Source of the DNA: a virus
DNA length: 32,254 nt
IMG/VR virus record: IMGVR_UViG_3300022693_003247
Location: 1-32,254 of that record
Strand: one strand, 5' to 3'
In this document: piece after piece, positions 3,777-32,254 of the stretch
Layout: each line of letters begins with the position of its first letter
Position numbering within the stretch: the first letter of the stretch is position 1
Program-made: the position numbers and the translations under genes
The notes under the pieces: model-generated
Told to the model about the DNA's origin: nothing
The model's input: only the letters and a program-made list of their open reading frames with translations
Database searches by the model: none

Positions 3777-3777
3777 T

Positions 3778-6850: not shown

Positions 6851-7194
6851 GATAACCTCTCCCATTTCTTCTTATAACGAATCCAACCAAATGCCCTGAC
6901 CCCAAGATAATATACCTTTGAAAGAATCGGATAACCCAACCCTTTGAGCATGCACTTGAACAACCTGTCGGCTTCTTTCCTGCTCACCACTCCTGTTGAA
7001 TACAGATAATCATGCATCACACAAGCTGGGTTCTTAACCACATTCAATGGAAGGTCAGGAACCAGAGTGCAACCATCGGACTTTTCATAATACCCATCTT
7101 CACAGGCTTCTTTGAAATACTTGAAACAATCTTTGTCTATATTCTTCTTCCGGCAGTGGCCTAAAATATAAGATTCTTCTATTGTTATTGTCAT
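6847..7194 (-). CDS. DUF1353 / phospholipase A2-like protein
   Basis: A 115-residue protein with the core ACVMHDYLYS (Cys58, His61, Asp62), then SRKEADRLFKCML with Asp76, and a closing YYLGVRAFGWIRYKKK. This order matches the DUF1353 pattern and resembles the C-x-x-H-D active-site helix of secreted phospholipase A2. Six cysteines (14, 23, 31, 42, 58, 81) would allow disulfides. The family occurs near phage tail and lysis genes, and its enzymatic activity is largely unproven. It is the last gene of the leftward virion operon, overlapping the preceding stop by four bases. A role in breaching or altering a host membrane at entry or lysis is inference. Confidence 0.7.
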   Translation of the reverse strand: MTITIEESYILGHCRKKNIDKDCFKYFKEACEDGYYEKSDGCTLVPDLPLNVVKNPACVMHDYLYSTGVVSRKEADRLFKCMLKGLGYPILSKVYYLGVRAFGWIRYKKKWERLS

Positions 7195-8846: not shown

Positions 8847-8847
8847 G

Positions 8848-10245: not shown

Positions 10246-11447
10246 TAGTTCAACCCCCCAAACCCACTTGCAGGATTGAATGTAAACCCTGGTTGTTGAT
10301 TTCTTTTAAACTGATTGAATAAATTTGTGTCAACATCTATAAGGCTCTGATTAGGATTGAATGAGGAGCCTCTAGAACTATTTTGAGCGTTTAAAAATTG
10401 ATTGAAATTAAACCCTCCACCGCTACCACCGCCACCTTGATTTCCGAAGAACCCCTGAGCTCCTCCTATTACAGCCCCAGGTGGTCCGCCCGTGAGGAAG
10501 CCCACACCAGCCCCAAATAAACCAGAGCCGATTCTACTTAGAGTGGCCCTCTTCTTGTCCCTCTCCGCTTGCCTTCTGGCTTCTTCCTGAGCAATTAACT
10601 GTTGATTGAACTTCAGCACATCAAGATCAAACCCTAAATCAAATTGTCTCTTTCCTTCTTCGAAACGATGAACGTCCAAACCAAACCCAAGCGTGTTGAA
10701 GAACGAACCCGTACTGAGTCCTTGAGAGAACTGGAATATGTCTTGCCCACCTTGCAGTTGACCTTGTTGTAATTGGATTGCAATGTTCTTGAGTTCTTGC
10801 TCTCTGTCTAAACGATCCTGTTCAATTGCAATATCGAGGTCCCTTGTGAATGTAGTGAATGGGTCTTCAAATGTTCTGGCTCTCGTTTCTGCAAATACTT
10901 TGGCGGCCTCACCGCTGAATGTATTTTGAGTTTCGGAAAATATTCCTCTAGCGTTTAAGTCTTCTACACCTGCTCGTAGGCTTTCATCTAAAAAGAACCC
11001 GAACTCAGACTTCGCTCTGTCTCGGAGCCGGCCTCTTTGTTCATCACTCACAGTCGATATAGGAAATGTTCCACCTAATATTTGGTCAATGAGACTCTGA
11101 ACCCGTCCTCTGTTCTCATCTAGGAAGCCTCTGTCTGCCCTGGCTTGATCTGCCAATTCTTGAAGTTGAGGAATATTCCCTATGTCTTTGAATCGATTCT
11201 TTAATGACACGCTGGTAGAACTTGATCCGCTGGTAGAACTTGATCCGCCGCCACCATCACCAAGTGGAATCAGTTTACCAGCATTGAAGAGTTGAACTTC
11301 TAGTGATCCCCTCTTCAATAACCCTCTTGCTTTTGCTTTTGCAATTGCAGACTCATCAACTCTACCATCGCCGTCTTCGTCCACGAAAAATTCAGAGGGG
11401 GATATCTTGTCAAAGAAGTTGTTTATTATTGAATCGTTAACTCCCAT
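10245..11447 (-). CDS. Virion protein with EF-hand-like loop and glycine-zipper segment (400 aa)
   Basis: Residues 22-33 (VDEDGDGRVDES) match an EF-hand/dockerin-type calcium loop, DxDGDGxxDE. After it comes a Gly/Ser linker with a duplicated GSSSTS unit (about 75-90), long glutamine- and arginine-rich helices, and a glycine-zipper hydrophobic stretch (GSGLFGAGVGFLTGGPPGAV, about 312-331). The C-terminal 70 residues are Asn, Gln, Gly and Phe rich and low in complexity. A calcium-dependent fold plus a membrane-active glycine zipper would suit a protein that moves from the capsid into the cell envelope; this is inference. AGGAAA precedes the ATG, and it overlaps the upstream gene by 11 bases. 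Confidence 0.55.
   Translation of the reverse strand: MGVNDSIINNFFDKISPSEFFVDEDGDGRVDESAIAKAKARGLLKRGSLEVQLFNAGKLIPLGDGGGGSSSTSGSSSTSVSLKNRFKDIGNIPQLQELADQARADRGFLDENRGRVQSLIDQILGGTFPISTVSDEQRGRLRDRAKSEFGFFLDESLRAGVEDLNARGIFSETQNTFSGEAAKVFAETRARTFEDPFTTFTRDLDIAIEQDRLDREQELKNIAIQLQQGQLQGGQDIFQFSQGLSTGSFFNTLGFGLDVHRFEEGKRQFDLGFDLDVLKFNQQLIAQEEARRQAERDKKRATLSRIGSGLFGAGVGFLTGGPPGAVIGGAQGFFGNQGGGGSGGGFNFNQFLNAQNSSRGSSFNPNQSLIDVDTNLFNQFKRNQQPGFTFNPASGFGGLN
11211..11246 (-). repeat. Perfect 2 x 18-bp tandem repeat
   Basis: GCTGGTAGAACTTGATCC occurs twice without interruption. It is in frame and encodes the six-residue linker unit GSSSTS twice in the calcium-loop protein. Copy number may vary between related phages by slippage. 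Confidence 0.9.
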
Positions 11448-12847: not shown

Positions 12848-14353
12848 CTATAGATCCGTTTCAATTCTTTTTTTGAGTAGTTGAGCTGTTATGGACCATC
12901 CAGCGATATTGACTCTTTTTCCTGAAGTTTTTGTCACAAATTTCAAAACAAGTGACTTCCCCATTTTTCTGATTCCAACAGAATAATTTTTAAACGTATC
13001 GAATGCCCATGTGAAGTTTCCCCAAACCATGGTACCCCACTGAGGTAACGATTGTGTGGTCACAGTCTTCAAAGAATCGAATGAGGGAAACTCACCCACT
13101 CCGTAATGGATCTCTAGTGGGGTACCGGAGGAGGTGCCCTTCATGAGTACAGTGACCGTGTGGAAACGTTTCAGAATGTCATGCGCGTCAAAGTCATATG
13201 CCTTGGTGATGATGGTCCCTGTGATCGTGTCGCCATCATCGGTTTGTGCGACATCATCGAATTTGTAAATGATTCCACCGTTTGAATCTGTTCTTGAATC
13301 TCCGAATTTAATCTGCCACTTACCAGTTGAGTCTACGCCTCTGCCATAACACGAAATCTCTCTCCCTTCGGTGAACGAGATCCCTTGAACAATTTCATTG
13401 TAGTTGAAGACAATTTCTCGATCATTTACGGTCTCGTCATTCCTTCGAACGGACCATCGAATTTCTTGTTTGTTTGGGTCAAAGGTTCCTGAAATCAAAC
13501 CGAGTGTGTCCGTTTCTAATCCATCCCAAAAAGTTTTGATCTTCTGTTGAGACAGCTTAACCGGGATGGCTCCTATGGATGCGAAGATTGCATAGATCCC
13601 ATCACGAGCAGGCCAGAACAGGGCTTCCCCGGTAGACACAATCCCGTAGTGTGAAATACATCCAACCTCAGACAGCTTGAAGAAGTCAAATTGAGACCAT
13701 GCGTAACCAACCGTTCTGATTATTTTGTTTTTGAAAAATATGAAGAGGTTGTCCTTGAGTTCCCCTATGCCTGTGATCTCACCCCACTCAAAGTCCTGGA
13801 TGTTTGCAGCGGGCCATGATGAACCAACTCCCAACGCAGAACCTTGTAACCTGTTTTTGTTGGCTGCGATTCCAGCCACAAGCAGGAAGTTATTGTACAC
13901 GAGCAGGTACTTACCAGTTGGAGGTGAGCCGGATGTGCCCCCAAAGGAACCATCCTTAGATCTCTCTACTAGAGCGTCACTCTCATTGGCTGCGTAAACC
14001 TTGTCATGGAACAGAACGAAGTCTGTTCGCTCTGCGGTCCGTCCAGTCGCAACATCGCTTGGTGTGGACTCCAATAATTTAATCGTTGTGGAAAACGCGA
14101 AGAGGGTTTCTTGCCCTCCAGAATACTCAGCGACATACAATCCCAGAATCGCACCGCTGCCGACACTAGAGGACATTGTGTCTTTCGAAGTACCTGCTCG
14201 CATTTCAAGGTTGATTCTTTTTTCTGAACTTGGGACGTAATCAAAGTTTGTCAATTCATTCAGTTCGTTGTCTGAAATCATCTTGAAGGGTGAGAGGTCG
14301 TTCACCGTTCTATGATTGTGAAAATCCTTCTCTATGAGTTCTGTTGCCATCAT
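12848..14353 (-). CDS. P22 gp10-like tail / packaged-DNA stabilisation protein
   Basis: A 501-residue, beta-rich protein with repeated blade-like segments (FVLFHDKVYAANES, KYLLVYNNFLLVAG, LFIFFKNKIIRTVG, LFWPARDGIYAI). This matches the P22 gp10 type of podoviral tail-hub protein, which has a beta-propeller-like architecture, closes the portal channel after packaging and joins the adaptor to the distal tail. It directly follows the tail-adaptor gene, as in P22-like phages. The ATG at 14353 sits very close to GAGG, so the second Met (14350) may be the true start. Four-base overlap with the upstream gene. The family call is by pattern, not alignment. Confidence 0.75.
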   Translation of the reverse strand: MMATELIEKDFHNHRTVNDLSPFKMISDNELNELTNFDYVPSSEKRINLEMRAGTSKDTMSSSVGSGAILGLYVAEYSGGQETLFAFSTTIKLLESTPSDVATGRTAERTDFVLFHDKVYAANESDALVERSKDGSFGGTSGSPPTGKYLLVYNNFLLVAGIAANKNRLQGSALGVGSSWPAANIQDFEWGEITGIGELKDNLFIFFKNKIIRTVGYAWSQFDFFKLSEVGCISHYGIVSTGEALFWPARDGIYAIFASIGAIPVKLSQQKIKTFWDGLETDTLGLISGTFDPNKQEIRWSVRRNDETVNDREIVFNYNEIVQGISFTEGREISCYGRGVDSTGKWQIKFGDSRTDSNGGIIYKFDDVAQTDDGDTITGTIITKAYDFDAHDILKRFHTVTVLMKGTSSGTPLEIHYGVGEFPSFDSLKTVTTQSLPQWGTMVWGNFTWAFDTFKNYSVGIRKMGKSLVLKFVTKTSGKRVNIAGWSITAQLLKKRIETDL

Positions 14354-15054
14354 GTACCTCTACTAAACGGCCAAGGAGTGATCGGACGCCTCAATTTAAT
14401 TTGTTTCCAATTCTTAATGATTGAACCTTCAGGACTTCGATTGAAGTCAAGTCTTACCCAACGCCTGAATTGATCCAGCCCTTTGTTGAAGTCCCTATCA
14501 CTTTTTTGAATCATCTGTCCATCATGACCAAGGTAGTCGTAAATGCGTGACTTTCCTCCTAGGATTATAAGACGCTCCCATCTAATGTAATGCTCTGTTA
14601 AAGAACGGATGTCTGAATTTGCAGTCATCTCAGCGTCAAGTGCGTAGTAGTCTAGACGACCTGTGTACGCAGCACTCGAAGGCGGTCCAATATGAATGAC
14701 CCCGTCAAATTCAGAATAATAGGCTGGGCATCCATTCCCGATATCGTATAGTTTACGGATTCTCCACTCGTTCCAAGGAAGCCAGATAAGAGGATTAAAG
14801 TCTTTCCCTTCCGAATTCTGAAGTTGTATGTTTAGAATTCTGCTTTGGTCACTTGATGGAACACCAGTCAGTGCAGAGTCTCCAACAGTAGTGGTGAATG
14901 TTGTTGTCTTCTCAAGGTGTTGTGCTTTTGGGACTGTGTCATTTATTTCTGCAATCACATCATTGATTGCGTTCTTGACTTCCGTCCTCAATTCATCATC
15001 ATTTCCACTAAAATGATTGAGTATTTTATTTTGTATTTCCTGAAAGCTGGACAA
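14350..15054 (-). CDS. Head-to-tail adaptor protein (P22 gp4-type)
   Basis: The first 60 residues are helical (VKNAINDVIAEINDTVPKAQ). The middle has beta strands with LTGVPSSDQSRILNIQLQN and DGVIHIGPPSSAAYTGRLDYY, then a helical ring-forming C-terminal part (LTEHYIRWERLIILGGKSRI). This layout matches podoviral adaptor proteins that bind beneath the portal and start the tail. The start appears to be TTG at 15054, since no ATG lies in frame nearby, and it overlaps the glycosyltransferase gene by 29 bases. So it is tightly coupled to the glycan island rather than to the portal, which lies 14 kb away. Confidence 0.75.
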   Translation of the reverse strand: MSSFQEIQNKILNHFSGNDDELRTEVKNAINDVIAEINDTVPKAQHLEKTTTFTTTVGDSALTGVPSSDQSRILNIQLQNSEGKDFNPLIWLPWNEWRIRKLYDIGNGCPAYYSEFDGVIHIGPPSSAAYTGRLDYYALDAEMTANSDIRSLTEHYIRWERLIILGGKSRIYDYLGHDGQMIQKSDRDFNKGLDQFRRWVRLDFNRSPEGSIIKNWKQIKLRRPITPWPFSRGT

Positions 15055-16165
15055 TTTTCTTACGGCCTCTTTTGTTGTTTAAATCCAAAAGAAGGTCCGC
15101 ATAGCTACGCACAACCTTTCTAGCATCGTAATGAAGTTCTACCTTCTTACGCGCATTAGATGCTATTTCAGTTCTTAACTTTATATTATCCACTAACAAA
15201 GATATTTTGTCAACCCATTCCTGTGTTGTTGAAGCGAAATATCCGTCCACCCCATCTTCCACCGTTTTTTCGTAAGGCTCTACTTTGGAACACACTGTGG
15301 GCAATTTAAGTGCAGAGTATTCTAGATACTTCAGGTTTGATTTACATCGATTGAACTGATTGTCCCAGAGTGGGGCGATAGTGATATCAACCTTCCATTT
15401 CATCATTACCTTGTGCCACTTAGAAGGGTGGTGCCAAGTCAAACGATTCTTGAATTGTTTGTGTTTCATCAACCCATCTGCACCATGGATGCAATGGAAG
15501 TGTAAGTTTGGGTATTTATCAAATAAAATCTCGAAAGCTCCCTTCACCAGTTTGAGATCCTTGCCATGGCCACCTCCTCCAGCCCATCCGACAATCACCT
15601 TCCCATCCGGTAACCTGTCTCTTCTAATGTCCCATAAATTCAGATCTATGGCATTGGGCACAACGTGAACACTGTCATGGATAGAACTAAGCTCTGATTT
15701 CAGCCATTCTGTAGACACAATAATATGGTCGGAAGCCTTTATTTGCTGATATGAAGTCTGTTCAAGTTCGCTGCCGACACCAATGAACTCTTGATTTTCA
15801 TGCGTCCCACTCACTCCAAACACTGTATCATCAACCTCTGTGATGATCATGCAGTTGTGGCTGTCCGCCAAGGCCTGTACCGTTGCCAAAAAGTAAAGAT
15901 TATGGATTTTTGAAATGACAACAACATCAGCCATATTAAACAATTGATTTAGATATTCAATATTCTTGTCCGGGTTCACCTCATAATCCCTTGCGTATTT
16001 GTCGTGAAGTTCCTCGTCAAAATTTGGGTAGATCGGAACAATCCCGTCAATATCACACATCAAGTTTGCAGGCTGAATCATGCGGTACCACGATATGCCA
16101 GAGTTCCCAAGATGGAGGAATAATACTTTAAGTCCTGTCTGAGAAACGAGTTCAGATGGTTTCAT
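15026..16165 (-). CDS. GT4-like glycosyltransferase (GT-B fold)
   Basis: A 379-residue GT-B enzyme. It has an N-terminal domain with LKVLFLHLGNSGISWYRM near 12-29, the junction VHVVPNAID at 167-174 typical of GT4, and the donor-binding part IAPLWDN at 263-269 followed by NRCKSNLKYLEYSALKLPTV (Lys275 to about 291), which stands where GT4 enzymes have their E(x7)E-type donor motif. It would transfer a sugar from a nucleotide-sugar donor. It overlaps the tail adaptor by 29 bases and the methyltransferase by 14, linking glycan genes physically to virion genes. GGGGAAA precedes the ATG. The acceptor is unknown: virion protein, lipid carrier or host polysaccharide. Confidence 0.85.
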   Translation of the reverse strand: MKPSELVSQTGLKVLFLHLGNSGISWYRMIQPANLMCDIDGIVPIYPNFDEELHDKYARDYEVNPDKNIEYLNQLFNMADVVVISKIHNLYFLATVQALADSHNCMIITEVDDTVFGVSGTHENQEFIGVGSELEQTSYQQIKASDHIIVSTEWLKSELSSIHDSVHVVPNAIDLNLWDIRRDRLPDGKVIVGWAGGGGHGKDLKLVKGAFEILFDKYPNLHFHCIHGADGLMKHKQFKNRLTWHHPSKWHKVMMKWKVDITIAPLWDNQFNRCKSNLKYLEYSALKLPTVCSKVEPYEKTVEDGVDGYFASTTQEWVDKISLLVDNIKLRTEIASNARKKVELHYDARKVVRSYADLLLDLNNKRGRKKIVQLSGNTK

Positions 16166-16829
16166 GTTTCCCCTTGCAAACGAAATTGTTCCACTGTGGA
16201 ACGTCTGTATTGATATTATTGCGTAGACACCAACTCTTCAAATAAGGGGTGCCCTTGATTTCCACATCCTTGAAAAATATGGATAACTTCGATTCAAGCT
16301 CATCCGTTTGAAATAAGGATTGATGAAAGTCTGCGTATTTATGATGCTCTCCGCCCATGCCCCCGCCAGGGTGAGGAACTGAACCCGAAAAAACACCTCC
16401 AGGTTTCAATACTCTGTGGATTTCCTTGAGCGCATCATACGGATCATAGCAATGTTCAAGAACTTCACCCATGACTACAGCATCAAAGAATGAATCCTTG
16501 AATTCCAGGTTCTCAACATTTTGAACTCTCGCAATTATGCCGCGTAAATTTGCTCGGACAACTAATTCTCCGACCACATCAATACCGAATACGGTACATC
16601 TGTTTTTGGTTTGAAGAAGAAGACCCATTGAACCATCATTACACCCGACATCCAGGACAATGGCCCCGTCTGGAACTGCACCTCTGATTCTGTCGATGCG
16701 TAGACGATCTGGTCCATACGGGTCGAACTTACCTTTTGCATATCCTTCGCTTCTATAGTTAGATTTGTGATCATTGATTGCTTCCTCTTTACTAGCATAC
16801 TTTAAGCTCTCCTCAACCTTTGTGTCCAT
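16152..16829 (-). CDS. Class I SAM-dependent methyltransferase
   Basis: A 225-residue Rossmann-fold methyltransferase. Motif I is VLDVGCNDGSMG at 58-69, an acidic motif II region is FGIDVVG at 81-87, and there is AVVMGEVLEHCYDP at 117-130 followed by LKPGGVFSGSVPHPGGG (141-157), the Methyltransf_11/25 layout. The long acceptor insert with His residues (GGEHHKYADFHQ) is typical of enzymes acting on sugars, lipids or small molecules rather than DNA; no DNA-methylase motif is present. Within the glycan island, methylation of a sugar is the natural inference. GAGGAGG precedes the ATG. Confidence 0.85.
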   Translation of the reverse strand: MDTKVEESLKYASKEEAINDHKSNYRSEGYAKGKFDPYGPDRLRIDRIRGAVPDGAIVLDVGCNDGSMGLLLQTKNRCTVFGIDVVGELVVRANLRGIIARVQNVENLEFKDSFFDAVVMGEVLEHCYDPYDALKEIHRVLKPGGVFSGSVPHPGGGMGGEHHKYADFHQSLFQTDELESKLSIFFKDVEIKGTPYLKSWCLRNNINTDVPQWNNFVCKGKHETI

Positions 16830-17634
16830 CTAAAACCTCCTCATGTGAAACTGAATTAATTGGGAACTTGTTGATTCTCTTGATCCATTTTTTTCTTTGA
16901 ATATCAAAACTCTTTTGAGCTAAAGTAAAAAACGAAGACCTCACGTCTTCAGGAACGAGTTCAATCAACTTTGTTCTATAGTCATCCTGGTTCATGTCTG
17001 GCCACGAATTGTAAAGCATTTTATCTGGAATGTTCATTGCTGCAAAACCCATGTTATAATAGGAGAGCAACTCTTTCATCGACGAGTAATTTAAGCCTGA
17101 ATTTTCAAACATTTTACCAATCTCAAATGTAATGGCTCTACTTGCCATACCATAGAGCCCAATGCACAAATCAGAAAATTCCGTGTTCTCAGAACCCGCG
17201 ACAAGCGCCGTGTTGTAACATGGCTTCAAATGAATGTCTGCTTTTGTCGCAGTCAATGCGTCATCAAAGCCGATCATCTTTTTGAAAAAATGTGAACTTT
17301 TATAATCCGTGTCCTTGAATATAATCGGACTGTGAACAACGTTTATGCCCTTCTCTGACAGAGCCTTGGTTGTTCCTGGTTTTACTGTGGAGTGGATGAT
17401 GATGAACTTCGATTTATAATGCTGATTGTAATCCGAAACAATCATTTCAAATTTATCTGAATAAGGAATGCAAACATGCATGATCATGTTCTGTGCAAAA
17501 GCAGGTTCTACTGTGTACTCTGCTTTTTCTATATCATGTCTCAATACATTGTAAGTCTTCCATAAGGCATTCTGTACAGAACGTCCAACAGCACCTCGTG
17601 ATCCCACGATGATGCACTTCTCTTTATGAATCAT
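16813..17634 (-). CDS. NAD-dependent sugar-nucleotide dehydrogenase-like protein, shortened
   Basis: The N-terminal Rossmann motif is CIIVGSRGAVGRSV (GxxGxxG at 11-17), followed by HVCIPYSD (53-60) and IIIHSTVKPGTT (78-89), the characteristic series of UDP-glucose/GDP-mannose 6-dehydrogenases. The middle part (ENTEFSDLCIGLYGMASRAI) is the helical dimerisation region. Family members are usually over 400 residues and carry a catalytic Cys in a C-terminal domain. This protein has 273 residues, and I see no C-terminal domain or obvious catalytic Cys. It may be a binding or regulatory relative, or it may catalyse only a partial reaction. It overlaps both neighbours, and the island context supports a sugar role. 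Confidence 0.75.
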   Translation of the reverse strand: MIHKEKCIIVGSRGAVGRSVQNALWKTYNVLRHDIEKAEYTVEPAFAQNMIMHVCIPYSDKFEMIVSDYNQHYKSKFIIIHSTVKPGTTKALSEKGINVVHSPIIFKDTDYKSSHFFKKMIGFDDALTATKADIHLKPCYNTALVAGSENTEFSDLCIGLYGMASRAITFEIGKMFENSGLNYSSMKELLSYYNMGFAAMNIPDKMLYNSWPDMNQDDYRTKLIELVPEDVRSSFFTLAQKSFDIQRKKWIKRINKFPINSVSHEEVLDGHKG

Positions 17635-18338
17635 ACAAATTCTATCTCCCTGCTGATGTTGTACTTTTTATATTTTTCTTCTTTTAATTCGTTTGCTAAT
17701 ATCACATTTCGATAATTAGACAACTCAGATAAATCTTTTTTGACGCACAGTATTTTCTCAATGAAACCAAATTTGTAACCTGCTCGATGAGCATCGATCA
17801 TGAAGAATTCATAAAAATCTGTGTCGAATGATCCTTCATGGTATTTAATACGGCGTCGCGAATAGCTGGCAACAACATCTTTTCTATAAGCCACTGTTGG
17901 GTGACTGATCGGAGGTTTACTTTCACCATCCCAATCAACCGCATTTTGCGTGAATATGGGCTCATCAAATGGAGTGTTGATTTGAACGTGTGAATAAACA
18001 ATGTCCTTATCTGGATTTTTATTGAAGTAATCTAAAACTTTCTTGGTTCTTGAATGAACATAAAAATCACCCGCATCACACACAAAAATGATGTCCCCAT
18101 TTGAAATTGTGTTTGCGAAATTCCTGCAATATGCCGCCCCTTTCCTAACTGGATTTCTAACCCATCTGATTTTTTTGTTTTTAGTGTAGTGTTCCTTTAA
18201 CGGAGCGATCTCGTCTGTAGAATAATCGTCAATCACAATCAATTCAAAATCTTTGTGCTTCTGGCTTAGTAAAGATTCTATTGTGTCCGCTAGGAAACTG
18301 AAACTATTGTAAACTGGAAGGACGTAACTTATTTTCAT
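17631..18338 (-). CDS. GT2 family glycosyltransferase
   Basis: A 235-residue GT-A enzyme. It begins ISYVLPVYNSFSFLADTIES, then ELIVIDDYSTDE (Asp37/Asp38) and RKGAAYCRNFA, and has the metal-binding motif DAGD at 88-91 in place of a strict DxD. HPTVAYRKDVV follows, as in many GT2 enzymes. It lacks membrane helices, so it is a soluble or peripheral single-sugar transferase. It shares the four-base overlap arrangement with the dehydrogenase-like gene, and abuts the small membrane protein gene 18339-18605, which may provide membrane recruitment (inference). Confidence 0.88.
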   Translation of the reverse strand: MKISYVLPVYNSFSFLADTIESLLSQKHKDFELIVIDDYSTDEIAPLKEHYTKNKKIRWVRNPVRKGAAYCRNFANTISNGDIIFVCDAGDFYVHSRTKKVLDYFNKNPDKDIVYSHVQINTPFDEPIFTQNAVDWDGESKPPISHPTVAYRKDVVASYSRRRIKYHEGSFDTDFYEFFMIDAHRAGYKFGFIEKILCVKKDLSELSNYRNVILANELKEEKYKKYNISREIEFV

Positions 18339-18969: not shown

Positions 18970-19326
18970 CTACAAACCATTATTCGTTTTTATAGTAGAC
19001 TTCAAGCCGAAATCTGTCACAATGCCTTGAGAGATGAGAGCCTGAATCAAATCGCTTAAACTGATATCGAGAACATCGATCTCTGCTATTCTAATATCCT
19101 TATCATTCTGAATAATTTTAGCATCCTTGGAATCTTTTTCTTCCGTAGTCATTTCAACAATAGATCCGCCTTTATGCGTCAAATGTTCAATAGAAACATC
19201 TGATAAAGACTCTAAGTCTGGATTGATAATGACATCTGTCCTGGATGCATAATCCGGTGTATGAACACTCAATTTAATCTCTAAAACGTCATTGGTTGAT
19301 TTATCAAAGATAACCACTGTAGCCAT
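18970..19326 (-). CDS. Hypothetical protein (118 aa)
   Basis: The N-terminal half is beta-like (MATVVIFDKSTNDVLEIKLS) with a segment DVIINPDLESLSDVSIEHL, and the C-terminal half is charged and helical (EEKDSKDAKIIQNDKDIRIA). This layout, a short beta part followed by a helix and a short tail, occurs in small phage accessory proteins encoded after fibre or lectin genes. AGGAGG precedes the ATG, which overlaps the stop of the LamG gene by one base. No signal peptide, unlike the four genes upstream. Confidence 0.6.
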   Translation of the reverse strand: MATVVIFDKSTNDVLEIKLSVHTPDYASRTDVIINPDLESLSDVSIEHLTHKGGSIVEMTTEEKDSKDAKIIQNDKDIRIAEIDVLDISLSDLIQALISQGIVTDFGLKSTIKTNNGL

Positions 19327-20063
19327 TATGAACCTCCTGTGAAAAATACTGGTGGAGCCGAATCAGAATTCAATCCATTGGTAACACTCCCCGTATTTGA
19401 ATTAGCACTTAAATCAGGCTCAGGGGAATCTCCCCGCAACGGTGAGAACAACGCTAACCCATCTACTATACTTCCAGGTTTCCACATTGCATGGTTAATC
19501 TCTGCCACACTGATAGCCCTGTTCCACAGTTGGAGATGTGCAATTTCACCATCAAATTGTCTTATACTATCTTCTCTGACTCCGACGAAGAGATCATTTA
19601 ATGCACCATTCTCAAAAGACCCTGTTGGGACGAAAGTGTCATTCACACCGACTGAAACTCCGTCTATATAAATGGTCGGATCATTGGTGATGGTATCATC
19701 ATCATGGATAACACAAATATTCACCCAAGTATTTAAAGATAAAACGCTGTTGTCAGCTGTCCACCGACCATTTGTACCTGTTGCGCTTTGACGAAATTCA
19801 ACTGTATCTGTAACGATAAGTAATAAACTCCAACCGTCTAAACTTTTCTTATCAAAAATTCTTCCACGACTAAATTGGCCTAGATTATCTGCATTGATCC
19901 AAGCCATGCACGTTCCGCCTCCAGCCCAGATATCATTAATGCTAGAATCACTGTCGATGGTAATTCTACGATTAGGTGTAAAATTACTAAATTCTCTACT
20001 CCCAATAGGAAAAATATTGAAAGTGAAAATGCATATTAAAATTAATGTGAATAACTTTCTCAT
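19326..20063 (-). CDS. Exported LamG/concanavalin-like lectin domain protein
   Basis: Residues 1-20 are a clear Sec-type signal (MRKLFTLILICIFTFNIFPI). Residues about 30-205 form a LamG/pentraxin-type beta-sandwich: CMAWINADNLGQFSRGRIFD, WSLLLIVTDTVEFRQ, LNTWVNICVIHDDDT, IYIDGVSVGV, then the family hallmark FDGEIAHLQLWNRAISVAEI. Such domains bind glycans or proteins, sometimes with calcium. The C-terminal 40 residues are Ser, Asn and Gly rich. It is one of four consecutive exported proteins in the island. If the signal is used, it acts in the periplasm or on the cell surface rather than only on the virion. Confidence 0.78.
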   Translation of the reverse strand: MRKLFTLILICIFTFNIFPIGSREFSNFTPNRRITIDSDSSINDIWAGGGTCMAWINADNLGQFSRGRIFDKKSLDGWSLLLIVTDTVEFRQSATGTNGRWTADNSVLSLNTWVNICVIHDDDTITNDPTIYIDGVSVGVNDTFVPTGSFENGALNDLFVGVREDSIRQFDGEIAHLQLWNRAISVAEINHAMWKPGSIVDGLALFSPLRGDSPEPDLSANSNTGSVTNGLNSDSAPPVFFTGGS

Positions 20064-20710
20064 GTTCTTGGTATCTCCACTGAAAATCCGGTCATAATAA
20101 AGTCACCCGATAAACCATCATTTGTTGCATGATCACCATCCCTACCAATGTATAAGAAAACCTCATCATTCGCCACCCAACCGAGTGTTGAAACTGTTTC
20201 AGTAATGACAAGCGTGTCTAAAGCATCCTGTGTATTGGTTAAAGTTGTGGTTCCGGTTTCTTCGGTTAACGCACCATCCCAATCCTCTGCATCGCCAACC
20301 TCATGCCATGCAACAAGCATAGCAATGTCTTGGGCCGCTGCGGTTGCTGCATATCCACGGATTCTAAACGTTACAGTTCCAGAAGTATCAACATCACTTG
20401 GAACTTTAAATTTCACCATCGTATACTCATCAGCAGTATCGTCGAAAGCAGCCCCAAGAATATCACTATTGGTTCCAGTGTCCGAACTAATCGAAGCAAT
20501 GCCATCAGCCGTACCAGAAGTAGGAACTGTCACTGGTTTCTTTGGTATCGTCGATTCACCCATCCAATAATATTCTTTAACGGAATTGGTATCAGAGCCA
20601 TCACCTCCACCCGAAAAAAAAGTACCCGGACCGGCATAAGAAGATGAACACAATTGAAATAGTAATAATAAAATGATTAAAACTAATTTATCTGATTTTA
20701 CTATATCCAT
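20060..20710 (-). CDS. Exported beta-sandwich protein with AGxGxFF start (216 aa)
   Basis: There is a signal peptide with a long hydrophobic core (LVLIILLLLFQLCSSSYA, about 9-26) and a likely cleavage after SYA. The mature protein begins GPGTFFSGGGDG, a motif shared with the upstream deacetylase-like protein. The remainder (TMVKFKVPSDVDTSGTVTFR, GDFIMTGFSVEIP) is beta-rich and resembles a carbohydrate-binding or virion jelly-roll domain. No catalytic residues are recognised. It overlaps the LamG gene by four bases. Function is unknown; glycan binding is inference from fold and context. Confidence 0.65.
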   Translation of the reverse strand: MDIVKSDKLVLIILLLLFQLCSSSYAGPGTFFSGGGDGSDTNSVKEYYWMGESTIPKKPVTVPTSGTADGIASISSDTGTNSDILGAAFDDTADEYTMVKFKVPSDVDTSGTVTFRIRGYAATAAAQDIAMLVAWHEVGDAEDWDGALTEETGTTTLTNTQDALDTLVITETVSTLGWVANDEVFLYIGRDGDHATNDGLSGDFIMTGFSVEIPRT

Positions 20711-20712
20711 TA

Positions 20713-22794
20713 TTAAAGCCTCATAAAATAAATAGTGAAATTTCTAATAGTTATATTTCGGGACGAGTCTTCATTGCTAAATGCAAAAGATAATTTATCA
20801 CCTGAAGCAACAGTCATTATTCCACCACCACTTATTGCAGCAAATATACCTGCGTTTTTTGACTGTTCTCTTACTTTTGACCCAGTGACAATCGTAACGC
20901 CATTACATACTTGAAAATCAAACGCACCAACATACGCAGAATCAGACAAGTTGGCTTGACTGATAATATCTCCAATGGCCAATCCGTGAGTGCCTGTTGT
21001 GGCGACTATGATCTTCCCGCCTGTCCAATCAGAAATTGACGCAATAGGAAATGAAGTCCCAGCACCACCTGCATCAAATGTCCAATCTGCTATATCTCCA
21101 CCAACCAATCCATTTGTATGATACGATTGGAAATCCGCTCCGGCATCCACTATCACAAAAGCATCCGTGTTGTCCTGATCATGCATTTCTGCATGGATGA
21201 TTTCAGTCGTGCTTTCTTTTGCCCAAAAAGTATTCTTATGAGATGAAAATGTTACAGTCTCGTTCAATTCGAGTTCTTCACTCAAGTTGACTCCTAAACC
21301 TAAGTTGTCCCCTAAAGCAGGAAATATTTGAAGAGTGTTTGACCCGTTATTTATAACTTCGATCTTCATTCTTACAAACGCGGGTGAAAGGGTCACTACG
21401 TCATCATTGTTTGCCACGACAGATATTTCATTAATATCAGATGTTAAAGGGCCTTGTCCCTGAGTCTGAGTTGTCGATGCTGTGATCCCTGAAGTCGCAC
21501 TAAAGATCATAAAGTTTCCACCTGTCAAACCATTGTTGATTATATCTGAGACTGTTCTGACTGGAATTCCATCTGATTGAATGTCATCAATAATGGTCCC
21601 GAAATTTGCAATTGAATATTCACTTGAGACACTCGGACTCACGACAAGTTTATGAAATAATAATATCAACCACTCTTTATCTACACTGGCCTTATCCACA
21701 GCGGTTGCTACATCTGAGGTTGAAGTCGTATTAAGTACTTGCATGACTCGGAGTCTGTGATAATCGGCAGGGGCAATCGTCTCTGCATAATTTGCAATAG
21801 TTCGAGCCGTTCTGAAGTATCTCTTGACTGTAGGCAAGACAATTGTTTCGTCATAAGCTCCATTTGGATATGCAAATTCCCCAGCTCCACGGATCAATCC
21901 ATTATCTAATAAATAATTCTTCACCGTAATCAATTCGGATGTGACTTGGGCTTGGGTCAATGTTGTTAAATTTGTTGCGTGATGCCATGATATGTCCCAA
22001 CCACTTATATCTTGTAGAGATTTCAATTGAGCCAGTGTCATATAATTTGACGTCCCAATCAAATCAGGGATTATATAGGCCGTTCCAGCAAAACCATATT
22101 CGTCCATTTTCAAACGCCCTTGATCGAACTGACTGTCCCAGCCATCATCGAAGGCAATCGTTACAGCCCCAGATTGAGGCTCAGGGACTAAGGCAATTGC
22201 GCCTAGATTTGCAGTGAGTGCGGTTTCCGCGTCATCCTTTATCCTCCACCGAAACGAATTCAATGCCGATCTATTAGGTGAACCCGTAACAACCGCTTCA
22301 CCAAAACTTAAAGTGATAGGCACCCAAGTGTTATCATTTTTTATCTGAGAAAAATCATCTGATAGTTTCCAAGTGTGAAATGCAGAGGAAAGGTTATCCG
22401 ATGATGCAAAAAACCAATACTCGGTTACAATACTGACATCATCAACTCTGACCCAAAGCTTGATATATTTTGAGGAAGCGTCAATGGTTGGAAAGATCGA
22501 AGTCTTTCGAGTGAATATCACATCGCCTGCGCCATCGGTTACAAGCTTGAGGGATTGCAAACCTTTAACGAAATTCACAGTGTCATCGCTTTGAGTACCC
22601 TCTGATGATTGCTTCGTCCATCCATGCCCTGACGCAAATGTGGTTACGATTGTTTCGGCAGGGTAAGCCAAGACACTCCCTCCAGGACCATCATTAGGCT
22701 GAGAATAAATACCATGGAAAAAACTACCAGATCCAGCATCTAAATGTAAACAAACTTGAAATAACAATAAAAATATTACAATAAATTTATTCAT
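20713..22794 (-). CDS. Exported polysaccharide deacetylase-like (NodB) multidomain protein
   Basis: A 693-residue protein. A signal peptide (1-20, MNKFIVIFLLLFQVCLHLDA) is followed by GSGSFFHG, an N-terminal beta-sandwich (about 45-205) of carbohydrate-binding type, a NodB domain (about 210-425) and a C-terminal beta-rich region (430-693). NodB motifs are AFDDGWDS at 214-221, WDISWHHATNLTTL at 267-279, FAYPNGAYDE at 307-316 and LILLFHKL at 376-383. The usual second metal His of motif 2 appears as Asn275, so activity is uncertain. Family members remove acetyl groups from glycans such as peptidoglycan, chitin or exopolysaccharide. Likely targets are host cell wall or capsule (inference). It overlaps the upstream gene by four bases. 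Confidence 0.8.
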   Translation of the reverse strand: MNKFIVIFLLLFQVCLHLDAGSGSFFHGIYSQPNDGPGGSVLAYPAETIVTTFASGHGWTKQSSEGTQSDDTVNFVKGLQSLKLVTDGAGDVIFTRKTSIFPTIDASSKYIKLWVRVDDVSIVTEYWFFASSDNLSSAFHTWKLSDDFSQIKNDNTWVPITLSFGEAVVTGSPNRSALNSFRWRIKDDAETALTANLGAIALVPEPQSGAVTIAFDDGWDSQFDQGRLKMDEYGFAGTAYIIPDLIGTSNYMTLAQLKSLQDISGWDISWHHATNLTTLTQAQVTSELITVKNYLLDNGLIRGAGEFAYPNGAYDETIVLPTVKRYFRTARTIANYAETIAPADYHRLRVMQVLNTTSTSDVATAVDKASVDKEWLILLFHKLVVSPSVSSEYSIANFGTIIDDIQSDGIPVRTVSDIINNGLTGGNFMIFSATSGITASTTQTQGQGPLTSDINEISVVANNDDVVTLSPAFVRMKIEVINNGSNTLQIFPALGDNLGLGVNLSEELELNETVTFSSHKNTFWAKESTTEIIHAEMHDQDNTDAFVIVDAGADFQSYHTNGLVGGDIADWTFDAGGAGTSFPIASISDWTGGKIIVATTGTHGLAIGDIISQANLSDSAYVGAFDFQVCNGVTIVTGSKVREQSKNAGIFAAISGGGIMTVASGDKLSFAFSNEDSSRNITIRNFTIYFMRL

Positions 22795-23171
22795 GGAAAA
22801 CTAACCTTAGTTGCTATGTAAGTTGCTTCACTGCCTGGGTCCGTACTGAACCATATTTTCAATGCCTGGCCTGGTGGAACCACCAATCCAAAGTCTTCCT
22901 TGTCCCATCCTCCATTTGCCCCAAAATAGTAGGTACCTGTTATTTTAGTCAAGGTTTCGTCCGGTCCATAAGCAAAATACATGTTGCACGCATTCTGCAT
23001 GGTCATGATGAAATGCTTTAAAATAATACATTGTCCTGCTGTGCCAGCCAAAATTGTTGTTGCGCCCGCCCCTGGATCTACAATTTGCCAGTCTCTATCA
23101 AAATTTCCAGCGCAAATGGACCCTACGGTTAATGCGATTATACCTACAATTAATAACAATTTATTTTTCAT
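22791..23171 (-). CDS. Small exported protein (126 aa)
   Basis: An N-terminal signal (MKNKLLLIVGIIALTVGSIC, cleavage near ICA-GN) is followed by a compact, beta-rich domain of about 100 residues (TILAGTAGQCIILKHFIMTM and KIWFSTDPGSEATYIATKV). The mature part has two or three cysteines and a Gly/Pro-rich turn (VVPPGQALKIWF). The Cys at the signal end lacks a canonical lipobox, so I do not call a lipoprotein. GAGGAATT precedes the ATG. It is the first of four exported-protein genes. The domain resembles small beta-sandwich decoration modules, but no family is recognised. Confidence 0.65.
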   Translation of the reverse strand: MKNKLLLIVGIIALTVGSICAGNFDRDWQIVDPGAGATTILAGTAGQCIILKHFIMTMQNACNMYFAYGPDETLTKITGTYYFGANGGWDKEDFGLVVPPGQALKIWFSTDPGSEATYIATKVSFP

Positions 23172-26530: not shown

Positions 26531-27649
26531 TTAAGTACCTGAAGTGGCCACTCTATCAGTTGTAGCAATTACACACGCAGCACTCTTATTAAGAATTGCA
26601 GCTGCCATAACCATTTTACCACCCACTGTGGAAAACAGATCCACCGGTTGATCAGTACTATGTGGTCCAGGTCTCTTCACGAAAATCTCGAAACCTTGAT
26701 CGTTACCCATTTGAGGAGTCAATCGAGTCACACCAAACGCTCTCGTGTTTCCACCCTTCCCGATTAAGAAAGAATAGTTCATCGCACCAGATGCAGTCGT
26801 TAAAGGTGCAGCCGAGTAAACATATCGCAGGGACATGTTCGAAGTCACAACTCGTGCTCCAAAAATATGCCCAACTTCACCACGGAACATCTTCTCGACA
26901 TGGTTGTACTTATTCCATGTTGCCCATTTTGGATCTTGCATAATCACATCCGCAACCCAAGTGTGGCAATAAAGCACAAACAAATCTCCGTCCAACCCTT
27001 CAGCGTTTCTTGACTTCAAGTAGGATACGCCATGACGGATCTGATTCACTGTCATTGCGGAACCTGCAATATTCGCCGCTAACTCCGCGCCTGAAGATGA
27101 AAGTCGCTGTTTGTTATGTAGGATTGGATAAGGGGAATAAAAATGATGCGTCCGTTGTGAACTGATGGTCGTAAACATACCATCCGTGTCAACATTGGTC
27201 GTGTCAGTGTTGTACCCTAGATTATTGATTGAAGAACGCTTCGCGTTTCCCAATCTCCCGATGACGTTCTGTCGAAGGTAATCTTCAACAGTTTTCGCCA
27301 ACTGATCCGAGATGACTCCAACGGCACCTTTAACATTCTTGTCAATCATTGTGTCTATGACAAGTGTTGAAAGTTTCGCGTAGCCATGTCTCAAAATCAA
27401 CGTGGCGTTGATTTTGTAGGACGATAGGTAAACTTGATTCTGAGTCAACTCAGAACCGTTCGCCATTATTGGTTTGTTCGGTCTCCAACCCGTCCACTCA
27501 GCTTGAGTTCCTTCGTTAGCAGGAATATCCGCTGCTTCTCCGAACTGGACGAGTCGTGTCTTTGGTTCTAGTCGGTCAATCATCAAGCGATTATAATAAA
27601 TCTTAATCGCCGGTGTGATCGCCGCATCTGTTGTTTTTTGATCTGCCAT
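26531..27649 (-). CDS. Major capsid protein, N4-gp56-like
   Basis: A 372-residue HK97-fold-type capsid protein. The N-terminal segment has RLEPKTRLVQFGEAADIPAN, EWTGWRPNKPIMANGSELTQ and ILRHGYAKLSTLVIDTM, which resemble the N4-gp56 family pattern of a tryptophan-centred beta segment followed by a long spine helix. The middle contains the Asn/Gln-rich flexible loop and the C-terminal part returns to beta structure (GHIFGARVVTSNMSLRYVYS, GKGGNTRAFGVTRLTPQMG). GGAG precedes the ATG. It sits directly behind the scaffold-like gene, as expected. I rate the family call as likely but based on pattern only. Confidence 0.85.
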   Translation of the reverse strand: MADQKTTDAAITPAIKIYYNRLMIDRLEPKTRLVQFGEAADIPANEGTQAEWTGWRPNKPIMANGSELTQNQVYLSSYKINATLILRHGYAKLSTLVIDTMIDKNVKGAVGVISDQLAKTVEDYLRQNVIGRLGNAKRSSINNLGYNTDTTNVDTDGMFTTISSQRTHHFYSPYPILHNKQRLSSSGAELAANIAGSAMTVNQIRHGVSYLKSRNAEGLDGDLFVLYCHTWVADVIMQDPKWATWNKYNHVEKMFRGEVGHIFGARVVTSNMSLRYVYSAAPLTTASGAMNYSFLIGKGGNTRAFGVTRLTPQMGNDQGFEIFVKRPGPHSTDQPVDLFSTVGGKMVMAAAILNKSAACVIATTDRVATSGT

Positions 27650-28580: not shown

Positions 28581-28919
28581 CTATGCTTTTATTTTTTCCT
28601 TGAGTTCATCTGTCATTTTTTCTTTGCTCAGATTACCCTTACCTTGTTTCAATTCTCTTATCTTAAATATCGATTCGATCTCTTTTATGGCTCCGCCCGC
28701 TATGAGGTTTTTTAACTGAATAAGATGTATCACAGCCTCCCTAGCTCCTTCAGCCGGTATTTCAGAATCCTTTATCGTCTCTGTGATTCTTATTTCAATT
28801 TCATTGAGAAAAAAACTAACCAGAATGTTGTTCCTCTTTAATTCAGACAGTGCCGCCTTCAGGTTGGATAAATGGTCAGACCCAGTCGTGGTGAGGTTCA
28901 GATATATTTCTTTTCTCAT
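28581..28919 (-). CDS. Hypothetical head-region protein (112 aa)
   Basis: A helical, charged protein (NLKAALSELKRNNILVSFFL and IIKEIESIFKIRELKQG-like segments) without membrane helices or motifs. It overlaps the portal stop by four bases (ATGA) and lies eight bases before the scaffold gene, so it is coupled to both. Candidate roles are a portal-associated or assembly factor. It is not an obvious small terminase, because no helix-turn-helix is visible, but that option is open since no other small terminase is found in this window. Confidence 0.6.
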   Translation of the reverse strand: MRKEIYLNLTTTGSDHLSNLKAALSELKRNNILVSFFLNEIEIRITETIKDSEIPAEGAREAVIHLIQLKNLIAGGAIKEIESIFKIRELKQGKGNLSKEKMTDELKEKIKA

Positions 28920-30931
28920 TTTATTGGGCCCAACGCTCCTTCAGCTTTACGGTCAATTTCTGTTTTGGTCTCAGGATTCGTAGGATGGGTGTCCGCCCCA
29001 GGTGGAACCTGTCCCGTTGCTTGAGCCAATGGGTCCTTTTTCGGATCATAATGAAACTTCTCTGGGAACTCAAACTGGTTTGCTTCTAGCAATTTGTCCC
29101 CTAGCTTTTGCATGTCATACAGTGTACTTCCTCCAGGTCCTTTTACTTGCGACAATACTTGAATTAAATTCTGTATGGAAAGCTGCTCGAATTCTCTAGA
29201 TGCCGACACAGAATCCGCCCGAATTTCAATGTCATAAAAGCCTTGAATGTCCTCGTTGAGCACATCTTCAAATTTAAATTCTTCCTCTATATCTGTAATC
29301 TTGGGTATCTCGGTTTTATCCAGGAACAGTTGAGATTCCATTAGAATCATTTCAAACATATCCTTAAGGAATGTTTCTTGAGAAACTTGCGAATACGAAT
29401 CAATCCTTCGGCTCGTCTCACGCAAAATGTTTGCTAAACCATGCGCAGTCTGGTTGTTCACAATGTTGCCTTGCCCTCCCAATGTGAAATCATTTATTCC
29501 AAGTGACTTTTGGATGAAGCCCTCAACAAACTGAACCATTGCAATCATGGATGGTTTGATGTCTGGCAAATTCAAAACCTTGAATCCTTCAGGATTGTCC
29601 GTTGGCCAGTTTTGTGCTGGACCGAATATGGCGTGCTCTGGGTCCCAATCTCCGTCAAGGGGTGTTATAATTGGAGGTGAAGTGGTCCAATCTTGGTGAT
29701 TGAGAATATTATTCACTAAATGATTCAACAACGCATTTTGTGAGTCGAGCAGTTCTCCTATTCCAATTCCGTAGAAACGGTGAGGCATTGTTATGAATCG
29801 GTCAGCCAGTAGAGGCCTGAATGTCTTCCCTCTAATTTTGAATGGAGTCCTTGCCATCCGCAAAACGAAAGTCTTACCCGCTATAATCGTAATGGTTTCT
29901 TCCTCGTAACCTTTTCCTAAATCGTGCCTGCCATAACAGATCCAGATCCGAATTCCTCTAGCAACGTTTTTATTCGAAAACAAACCATCCAGAGCGTCCC
30001 TTGCGTCCTGGGATTTATTTGAATCTTCATGATGATTGTTTTTCTCAAATTCAATGGTACGCTCACTATCGGATATGGAATCTTTCAACTTTTTGACTTG
30101 TTCTGAGTCATACTTGTTGTCACGCACTTTATGCATGATCTCGTCCATCGTTTCACTCGTCTCAATAATACTGTATGCGTGTTTCTGAATGTCAGTTCCA
30201 CCGGACGGGTCGGTCTTAAACCCAAAAATGTCAAGAACTTCAAGTTCTGGTTGATCCTTAATCATCTGATCTACTTCCAGCGCCTTAACCTCATAATCCT
30301 CAAAAGACTCTAAGATTGGCTCGATCTCTACTTGAGAAAAGTCTTTCGGTGCTGGTGCTTCGCCTTCTACTTGAGATTCCTCTAAACTTTCTCTCACCCA
30401 ATCATCAACGCTCTTGTCAAAAAGATATTTCCCCTCTAGGTCATCCTTCACAATGTCAATTTCCCATGGCATTGAACAAATCACAGTCCCATAAATGTTT
30501 TTTTGCCTTCGGGTGTCATTGAGCTTCACAAAGCCGCGCATCTTTTTTTCAAACATGTAACGCAAATAAAGTTCAACAGTCTTCGCCTTCTGGTCGTCAT
30601 CCCTACCAGTTGGCAACACCGTTACAAGGTGATGGGCTCCGCGTAACGTTCCCATTTCTCTGGTGGTGTAATTTTCGACGTTGATGTTCGTCGCTGGCAT
30701 AAAATATTCGTTGGCTTCGTCCCAAGGCTTAACAGCCCTGGTTGAAATTCCTCTATAATTCGCTAGGTAGGTGAGGAATGAATCCTCGTAATTTGAACGG
30801 AAATGATTTTCTGATTCAGTGTAGGCGGTCTGATAATATTTTAGAATGTCAGGTATTTGAGATCTCTTGAGGACTATAGGCTTATCACCGTAAAGCCTAA
30901 ATGAACGTTCACTCTGGAATGTATTCGTCAT
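28916..30931 (-). CDS. Portal protein (podovirus type)
   Basis: A 671-residue portal protein. Landmarks are AVKPWDEANEYFMPATN near 62-78, the FRPLLADRF segment, HRFYGIGIGELLDSQNALLN in the wing/stem, and FVEGFIQKSLGINDFTLGGQ, the pattern around the long helix that lines the tunnel. Size and landmarks fit the P22-type portal of podoviruses. The acidic segment near residues 185-240 is a likely external loop. It makes the dodecameric DNA gate on which the capsid and the adaptor assemble. AAGG precedes the ATG at 30931. It begins the leftward head operon from the symmetric promoter at 30946-30980. Confidence 0.85.
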   Translation of the reverse strand: MTNTFQSERSFRLYGDKPIVLKRSQIPDILKYYQTAYTESENHFRSNYEDSFLTYLANYRGISTRAVKPWDEANEYFMPATNINVENYTTREMGTLRGAHHLVTVLPTGRDDDQKAKTVELYLRYMFEKKMRGFVKLNDTRRQKNIYGTVICSMPWEIDIVKDDLEGKYLFDKSVDDWVRESLEESQVEGEAPAPKDFSQVEIEPILESFEDYEVKALEVDQMIKDQPELEVLDIFGFKTDPSGGTDIQKHAYSIIETSETMDEIMHKVRDNKYDSEQVKKLKDSISDSERTIEFEKNNHHEDSNKSQDARDALDGLFSNKNVARGIRIWICYGRHDLGKGYEEETITIIAGKTFVLRMARTPFKIRGKTFRPLLADRFITMPHRFYGIGIGELLDSQNALLNHLVNNILNHQDWTTSPPIITPLDGDWDPEHAIFGPAQNWPTDNPEGFKVLNLPDIKPSMIAMVQFVEGFIQKSLGINDFTLGGQGNIVNNQTAHGLANILRETSRRIDSYSQVSQETFLKDMFEMILMESQLFLDKTEIPKITDIEEEFKFEDVLNEDIQGFYDIEIRADSVSASREFEQLSIQNLIQVLSQVKGPGGSTLYDMQKLGDKLLEANQFEFPEKFHYDPKKDPLAQATGQVPPGADTHPTNPETKTEIDRKAEGALGPIK

Positions 30932-30999: not shown

Positions 31000-31011
31000 A
31001 TAGTGTACCAT
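31000..31011 (+). repeat. Third copy of the 12-mer ATAGTGTACCAT
   Basis: It is identical to 356-367 and to the reverse complement of 478-489. It lies in the terminase leader, about 10 bases before the start codon and 20 bases downstream of the rightward -10 box, where a bound protein could block or antiterminate transcription. Confidence 0.7.
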
Positions 31012-31019
31012 GTAAAATA

Positions 31020-32254
31020 ATGAAAATGAAACGTGAACAGTTATTCACCATCCTAGCGGATGAGTACGCAAAGTGTTACAAAGACCCGTTTTACTTCATA
31101 CAAACGTATTGTAAACTCAAGGACCAGAGAACTGGACAGGCCATCCCTTTCACAATGTGGCCTTGTCAAGTTGAGCAGGTTGAACTTTGGGTTAACAACA
31201 AATTCTGTATTACACTCAAAACGAGACAAATCGGAATCTCATGGTTGTCCGCTGCAATTCTACTTTGGTGGTCCATTTTCAGAAAATACCACAAGTCAAT
31301 GATTATTTCCAAAAAAGAAGACGACGCCGCTGTCTACCTTGACAAAGTAAAATTCATGTACAACAACCTTCCTCAAGAATGGAAAACCTACATCTGTCCA
31401 CTTGCTCGAGAGCCCACAAAACTCAACATGGAATTCGCTCAGAGTGGTTCCGAAATCTTGGCTGAATCCTCAAACCCAGAGGCGGGTCGATCACACACCC
31501 TAAACGTAATCGTCCTGGACGAGGCAGCATTCATACCTGATGCCGGTTCTATATGGACCGCAGCACGTCCGGCTCTCATCACAACCAAGGGCAAGGCCAT
31601 CTTCATTTCGACAGCCAATGGTTATGAGAATTTCTTCCGGCCAATCTACATGGGAGCCAAAGACAACATCAATGGATTCAAGGCGAAGTTCATCGCGTGG
31701 GACGGAGATCCAGTGCGCGATCAGGCGTGGTACGAACGAGAGAAACAATATTACAATTCCCTTGGCAAGCAACGTGAGTTTCGTCAAGAATTCCCAAAGA
31801 ACGATATCGAAGCTTTCATTGTTTCGGGGCTCACTTTTTATGACCCAGACCTCATTCAAAAATACATCGACAAACCAAAAGACCCACTCCAAGCGCGTGG
31901 GAACCTCAAATGCGTACCAGCTGCGGTCGGTCAATCACCTTACAGACTCGAATGGCATAGCGATGGTTATCTTAAAGTTTGGCAGGAACCGCAAACTGGC
32001 GTAAAATATTGTGGTGGCATCGATGTCGCGGAGGGTGTAGCCGATGGGGATTTCTCCATTGCGGCATTTTACGACAGGGAAACCCGGAAGCAAGTTGCGG
32101 AATACGCCGCTAGGGTTGATACCGATACCTTCGCTAAGGACGTTTATCTCATCGGGAAATGGTACAACACGGCACTCCTCAATGTGGAAATCAATTCCGT
32201 TGGGGAATCTATGATGAATTACCTCTCCAAACAAAAACACTACCCCTCCTTATA
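31020..32254 (+). CDS. Terminase large subunit, 3'-truncated by the window edge
   Basis: The open frame starts at ATG 31020 (or ATG 31026; neither has a good Shine-Dalgarno) and continues without stop for 411 codons to the edge. It has the packaging ATPase: a deviant Walker A, KTRQIGIS at 67-74, lacking the lysine before Ser/Thr; Walker B VIVLDEAAF at 163-171; and the coupling motif STAN at 197-200. The nuclease domain begins with GGIDVAEG (Asp335), with Glu390 in NVEINSVG as second metal ligand; the third acidic residue lies outside. It cuts and drives DNA into the procapsid with the portal. It is the only large rightward gene and is divergent from the portal. Confidence 0.92.
   Translation, partial: MKMKREQLFTILADEYAKCYKDPFYFIQTYCKLKDQRTGQAIPFTMWPCQVEQVELWVNNKFCITLKTRQIGISWLSAAILLWWSIFRKYHKSMIISKKEDDAAVYLDKVKFMYNNLPQEWKTYICPLAREPTKLNMEFAQSGSEILAESSNPEAGRSHTLNVIVLDEAAFIPDAGSIWTAARPALITTKGKAIFISTANGYENFFRPIYMGAKDNINGFKAKFIAWDGDPVRDQAWYEREKQYYNSLGKQREFRQEFPKNDIEAFIVSGLTFYDPDLIQKYIDKPKDPLQARGNLKCVPAAVGQSPYRLEWHSDGYLKVWQEPQTGVKYCGGIDVAEGVADGDFSIAAFYDRETRKQVAEYAARVDTDTFAKDVYLIGKWYNTALLNVEINSVGESMMNYLSKQKHYPSL

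Follow-up and report, generated by a model that had tools for sequence, protein, structure and literature searches.

In Haloferax tailed virus 1 (HFTV1), an archaeal virus, the protein gp31 forms a trimer on the capsid turrets, which stand on hexamers of gp30, and host glycans are its proposed target for binding and deacetylation (PMC12494034). In phage lambda, plaques form without lom, a gene that adjoins the tail-fibre gene stf (PMC10695390), and a predicted signal peptide has been noted on an internal virion protein of a Klebsiella phage (PMC10194101). Here we analysed the IMG/VR record IMGVR_UViG_3300022693_003247, from an uncultured tailed phage, the window being the whole record of 32,254 bases, and we describe four of its consecutive genes, P1 to P4. 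Two facts seem to pull apart in this locus as read from its sequence: the N-termini look like those of exported proteins, while the cargo looks like that of virion-surface proteins. The simplest reading, to which we give a probability of about 0.42, is that P1-P4 are adsorption or decoration proteins of the virion-surface type that have been re-routed via Sec and act on surface or wall glycans outside the cytoplasm.

The four genes are tightly packed on the minus strand, with P1 and P2 overlapping by 4 nucleotides (nt), P2 and P3 lying 2 nt apart, and P3 and P4 again overlapping by 4 nt. The initial annotation held that the four consecutive genes at 19326-23171 encode Sec-type signals, each with a basic N-terminus, a hydrophobic core and a plausible cleavage site. 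The four open reading frames (ORFs) are as described, and a rule scan recovered these features in all of them, with a net charge of only +1 in P3 and a weak site in P4. The scan looks for a basic n-region, an uncharged core with a mean hydropathy of at least 2 and agreement with the -3/-1 rule. It was calibrated on E. coli; in an E. coli control stretch it found 6 of 6 known exported proteins, and its false calls were three inner-membrane proteins and one cytosolic protein. P1, P2 and P4 were picked by the standard scan, and P3 passed only when the charge rule was relaxed. The positive n-region, the uncharged hydrophobic core and the small residues at -3 and -1 agree with recognition by Sec and signal peptidase I; the cores are 13-15 residues long (8-15 in the criterion applied), whereas ordinary membrane helices are usually longer. 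With the best cleavage site in each case, the N-termini read MKNKLLLIVGIIALTVGSICA followed by GNFDRDW in P1, MNKFIVIFLLLFQVCLHLDA followed by GSGSFFHG in P2, MDIVKSDKLVLIILLLLFQLCSSSYA followed by GPGTFFSGG in P3 and MRKLFTLILICIFTFNIFPIGS followed by REF in P4. None of the four has a lipobox ([LVI][ASTVI][GAS]C), the cysteine being preceded by I in P1, V in P2, L in P3 and I in P4.

Among ORFs of at least 100 amino acids (aa) in related phage contigs, only 5 of 253 (2.0%) score as high, membrane proteins and a lipoprotein among them. From this background the probability of four signals in a row is about 6e-6, and the run is therefore not attributable to chance. Mis-called starts were rejected as the source of the signals in P1, P3 and P4, since none of these has an alternative ATG, GTG or TTG with a Shine-Dalgarno-like sequence just before the mature part; in P2, one TTG at codon 42 follows GGAGGG, and its product would start just before the conserved domain. 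A recent foreign origin of the four genes was likewise rejected on base composition, their GC content of 0.39-0.42 being like that of the remainder.

In P2, residues 1-44 have no confident structure in the model, and they are followed by a galactose-binding-like domain and then a deacetylase domain, both homologous to gp31 and arranged as in an HFTV1-type turret head. Residues 35-422 match the HFTV1 turret head (8qpg_TA) with a fold Z-score of 25.5 over 353 residues, and the matches to CE4 enzymes lie well below it (Z 18 and lower); the alignment of P2 with gp31 by hhalign gives 97.6% and E 4e-12. The CE4/NodB motif set is present, comprising the catalytic Asp pair, the metal His, YPxG and the final His, and D216, D217, H271, Y309-P310-G312, R331 and H381 are invariant in 10 of 10 aligned sequences. 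The second metal His is off the usual H-x3-H spacing, so that deacetylase activity of P2 is uncertain. A PDB search with the C-terminal region gave no convincing relative. The two-domain arrangement recurs, without a signal, in homologues from Gordonia phages, where they are minor tail proteins, and from a TM7 phage. We inspected nine phage relatives of P2 together with HFTV1 gp31; one of these 10 has a signal, and it belongs to the phage IMGVR_UViG_3300025009_000250 (G003). A search of IMG/VR, which holds few relatives, gave further ones.

The AlphaFold2 (AF2) model of P1, built from an alignment of two sequences, is a small jelly roll of eight strands, a fold of the kind found in phage decoration proteins. 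The mean predicted local distance difference test score (pLDDT) of the model is 75.9, with ~86 in the mature part and below 50 in residues 1-24, which are unfolded. The best fold matches are phage proteins of ~110 aa, some of them named virion proteins; those in the PDB form a mixed list that includes phage cement proteins and the HFTV1 turret chain 8qpg_TD, the latter at Z 8.1 and a root-mean-square deviation (rmsd) of 6.4, a value tied by unrelated proteins. No sequence similarity of P1 to the HFTV1 turret base gp30 was detected, so that a role as turret base is a lead only. Nor did hhalign relate P1 to the other small beta proteins of relatives, and a single-sequence search of phage records gave no match.

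A closer counterpart of P1 exists in the nearest relative found, the sister phage IMGVR_UViG_3300030103_004598 (L001/G001), whose head and portal proteins are 42% and 43% identical to those of the window. There, a syntenic homologue of 106 aa (L001, 13815-14135; 35% identity, E 4e-21) lacks a signal, and its start aligns exactly with the mature N-terminus of P1. The ~20 signal codons of P1 thus sit atop an intact domain. The genes after it in the sister phage, none with a signal, include one for a 432-aa protein like tail spikes and virion structural proteins (phrog_4636, phrog_6002), which makes the slot occupied by P1-P4 a surface-protein slot. To judge from these alignments, the signals would be either an addition specific to this lineage or something lost in the sister phage. 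An N-terminal hydrophobic segment was also seen in another sister-phage protein, judged by eye to be band-7/stomatin-like (G001, 2911-3978, minus strand).

For P3 and P4, single-sequence searches of IMG/VR and of phage records gave no match. The lectin-like domain of P4 scores 67 bits against a PF13385 gathering score of 27.6; its PHROG matches are phrog_31148 (E 2.3e-18) and, more weakly, the virion structural protein family phrog_8510 (E 9.6e-9). P2 and P3 have 24 gapless N-terminal residues in common, comprising the signal and AGxGxFFxG (score 67, reached in 0 of 2000 shuffles), as would be expected if an export module had been copied between cargoes. Over these modules 47 of 72 bases are identical, and a recent duplication was accordingly rejected; if it is a single module that was copied between cargoes, this happened long ago. 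Scanning IMG/VR for the module by DNA pattern returned four matches, none of them such a module.

The signal-bearing relative of P2 in G003 is a 917-aa fibre-like protein. Its deacetylase domain shares 58% identity with the P2 domain, and the two group as sisters in the tree with a support of 0.95. The signal of the 917-aa protein is unrelated in sequence to that of P2 and is followed by ~200 residues of fibre-type sequence before the deacetylase domain; the two signals were thus probably gained separately, in at least two events. Used as a query, the N-terminus of the 917-aa protein returned no sequence but its own. In G003, hydrophobic N-termini are present in fibre-like proteins of 917, 333 and 222 aa, so that the pattern is not confined to the window; this parallel does not discriminate between the readings considered below. 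Near the head genes of G003 (L028, 14598-15266, minus strand) lies a gene for a collagen-like fibre protein with a hydrophobic N-terminus.

We propose that P1-P4 acquired working Sec signal peptides within this lineage of phages, on a cargo of one jelly roll, one turret-head-like glycan-binding deacetylase and two further beta proteins, one of them lectin-like. During infection the host's Sec pathway and signal peptidase I would take them out of the cytoplasm, away from where capsids are assembled. They would build up in the periplasm or at the cell surface, binding and deacetylating surface or cell-wall glycans there, until lysis releases them. The likely benefit would be that glycan receptors on the infected cell and on debris are edited or masked, so that fewer progeny are lost to re-adsorption or superinfection. 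That proteins of virion-surface type here begin with signals which most relatives lack hints at export of the four proteins separately from the particle.

Several observations weigh against this proposal. Elsewhere, homologues of P2 form part of the virion (HFTV1 turret head, Gordonia minor tail protein) and the corresponding slot of the sister phage holds a tail-spike-like gene, so that P1-P4 may still be virion parts; the likeness of P2 and P3 does not stop at the cleavage site and might reflect a docking module; and the cleavage site of P4 is poor. As for the initial annotation, its suggestion of export to the periplasm or surface stands as the natural reading of four predicted Sec-type signals, and none of our results contradicts it, but its premise that a signal marks a non-virion protein is weakened by the virion homologues of P2, the decoration-type fold of P1, the signal-less P1 homologue and the tail-spike-like gene in the sister slot. 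Two of the roles that it offered, editing the envelope, in line with the predicted deacetylase and lectin-like domains, and coating exiting particles, both appear to be live options.

The second of these roles would have the signals cleaved and the mature proteins wait in the periplasm, bind the capsids (P1 as base and P2 as head) or tails of exiting particles after lysis, and end in the virion. Decoration proteins attach to the outside of finished capsids, and assembly outside the cytoplasm is therefore conceivable; the homology of P2 to the turret head protein, the place of P1 directly upstream of P2, like that of gp30 relative to gp31, and the presence of the HFTV1 turret and phage cement proteins in the P1 fold list all speak for it. 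To our knowledge, however, no tailed phage assembles via periplasmic decoration, and P1 has neither sequence similarity to the turret base nor a fold match that stands out from those to unrelated proteins. We regard this course of events as rather unlikely, and we are a little more sceptical of the general proposition that the capsid or tail decoration proteins of a tailed phage are exported via Sec and join the particles only once the capsid has been assembled, outside the cytoplasm, part of the virion surface being built in the periplasm or at lysis. It is similarly doubtful that the hydrophobic N-termini are uncleaved segments by which virion proteins dock in a capsid or tail socket or anchor in the membrane on infection. 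The N-terminal likeness of P2 and P3, which carry different cargo and agree past the cleavage site as tail-fibre docking modules do, and the hydrophobic N-termini of the G003 fibre-like proteins would suit such segments, but the positive n-region, the short core and the small -1/-3 residues fit Sec signals closely, and the N-termini of P1, P4 and the G003 917-aa protein are unrelated, so that there is no common docking sequence. Finally, although signals and lectin-like and deacetylase domains are common among bacterial secreted proteins and lambda lom offers a parallel in its position and dispensability, we consider it quite improbable that P1-P4 are a moron cassette of host surface-protein genes acquired by the phage, with no role in the particle and an effect like that of lysogenic-conversion surface proteins, because P1, P3 and P4 match phage proteins or phage families, the two-domain form of P2 occurs in phages and HFTV1, and no integrase was identified in the window.

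The surroundings of the four genes are given in Table 1. Nearly all genes of the window lie on the minus strand, and replication genes are also present. No terminase gene was recognised in the record, in which 31000-32254 lies past the portal gene, and the record is therefore probably an incomplete fragment; in the sister phage a terminase-sized gene adjoins the portal gene. P1-P4 lie in the middle of a cassette between the head and adaptor genes that contains glycosyltransferases, a methyltransferase and a dehydrogenase-like gene and may modify glycans of the virion or host surface. The flanks of this cassette are kept in identical order in the sister phage (the 568-aa GT2 glycosyltransferase upstream of P1 is 50% identical to its counterpart), and the genes in the middle differ. 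In a scan of prokaryote genomes, the sole match of the neighbouring glycosyltransferase was one distant locus in a Clostridium metagenome-assembled genome. A small DUF1353/phospholipase-A2-like protein, which also matches a tail assembly chaperone PHROG, is encoded at 6847-7194 on the minus strand.

Table 1. Coordinates of P1-P4, their predicted parts and other features of the window
Feature	Position	Strand	Basis or remark
P1, 126 aa: signal peptide and jelly-roll domain	22791-23171	minus	AF2 model, fold matches, syntenic homologue
P1 predicted signal peptide, residues 1-21	23109-23171	minus	rule scan score 10.0
P2, 693 aa: signal peptide, galactose-binding-like domain, CE4/NodB polysaccharide deacetylase, beta-rich C-terminus	20713-22794	minus	PF01522, E 3.5e-5
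P2 predicted signal peptide, residues 1-20	22735-22794	minus	rule scan score 9.3
P2 residues 45-204, carbohydrate-binding-like beta domain	22183-22662	minus	model pLDDT 60-93; aligned to N-terminal domain of HFTV1 turret head protein
P2 residues 205-423, deacetylase domain	21526-22182	minus	fold and invariant residues
P2 residues 424-693, beta-rich C-terminus without confident fold	20716-21525	minus	pLDDT <50
P3, 216 aa: signal peptide and phrog_34856 domain (family without assigned function)	20060-20710	minus	E 2.2e-45, residues 39-212
P3 predicted signal peptide, residues 1-26	20633-20710	minus	relaxed-charge rule scan; with following AGPGTFFSGG resembles P2 N-terminus
P4, 245 aa: signal peptide and Laminin_G_3 (concanavalin-like lectin) domain	19326-20063	minus	PF13385, E 2.8e-18
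P4 predicted signal peptide, residues 1-22	19998-20063	minus	rule scan score 8.43; weakest cleavage site of the four
118-aa gene directly downstream of P4, no signal	18970-19326	minus	no Pfam match; weak PHROG matches only
Two small proteins with a single transmembrane segment, 74 and 88 aa	18339-18966	minus	88-aa protein: weak match to phrog_1296 holin, E 0.0056
GT2, dehydrogenase-like, methyltransferase and GT1-like genes, downstream	15026-18338	minus	order conserved with sister phage
Two GT2 glycosyltransferases, upstream of P1-P4	23186-25640	minus	PF00535; conserved with sister phage
Major head protein	26531-27649		phrog_1357
Portal	28916-30931		phrog_1216
SU10-type adaptor	14350-15054		PF24175
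Large proteins, ejection-protein-like in appearance	7191-11447		

Surface proteins of tailed phages are generally taken to be assembled in the cytoplasm, and the literature searched, which omits most subscription journals, contained no description of a tailed-phage turret or tail-fibre protein with a Sec signal. Turret-head- or fibre-type proteins with signals would represent either adsorption proteins newly used as exported effectors or a split route of virion-surface assembly, and the annotation rule that a signal peptide means a non-virion protein would need caution.

Phage proteins that use Sec before lysis, as predicted for P1-P4, include signal-anchor-release (SAR) endolysins and spanins, but P1-P4 differ from these in having no muralytic Pfam or PHROG match and no match to a spanin family. 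Like P1-P4 as predicted, the beta-barrel Lom and the lipoprotein Bor of lambda are exported envelope proteins encoded by a phage; P1-P4, by contrast, lack a lipobox and are of jelly-roll, deacetylase and lectin types. The Gordonia phage minor tail proteins or 'glucosaminyl deacetylases' (e.g. Lton gp25) and CQ476_49 of a TM7 phage are ~30% identical to P2 over residues 39-423, with other N-terminal regions where P2 has its signal. The closest resemblance in architecture is to HFTV1 gp31 (PDB 8QPG), in which a galactose-binding-like domain precedes the deacetylase as in residues 35-422 of P2, and the gene order agrees as well, a small beta protein being encoded directly upstream with a 4-nt overlap in both (P1 before P2, gp30 before gp31). 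P1 resembles the HFTV1 turret base (~115 aa) in place and size and has no sequence similarity to it. In the HFTV1 genome (14712-15059) the deposited start of gp30 is too late; translation from the ATG further upstream, at 14712, yields 115 aa, in agreement with the cryo-EM paper. gp31 sits in the capsid, a location that P2 may share. The N-terminal stalk region of gp31, which inserts in the base hexamer, comprises ~56 residues and there is no signal peptide, whereas P2 has one and only ~25 residues before its first domain; and gp31 ends after the deacetylase domain, whereas P2 continues into a C-terminal extension of 270 residues.

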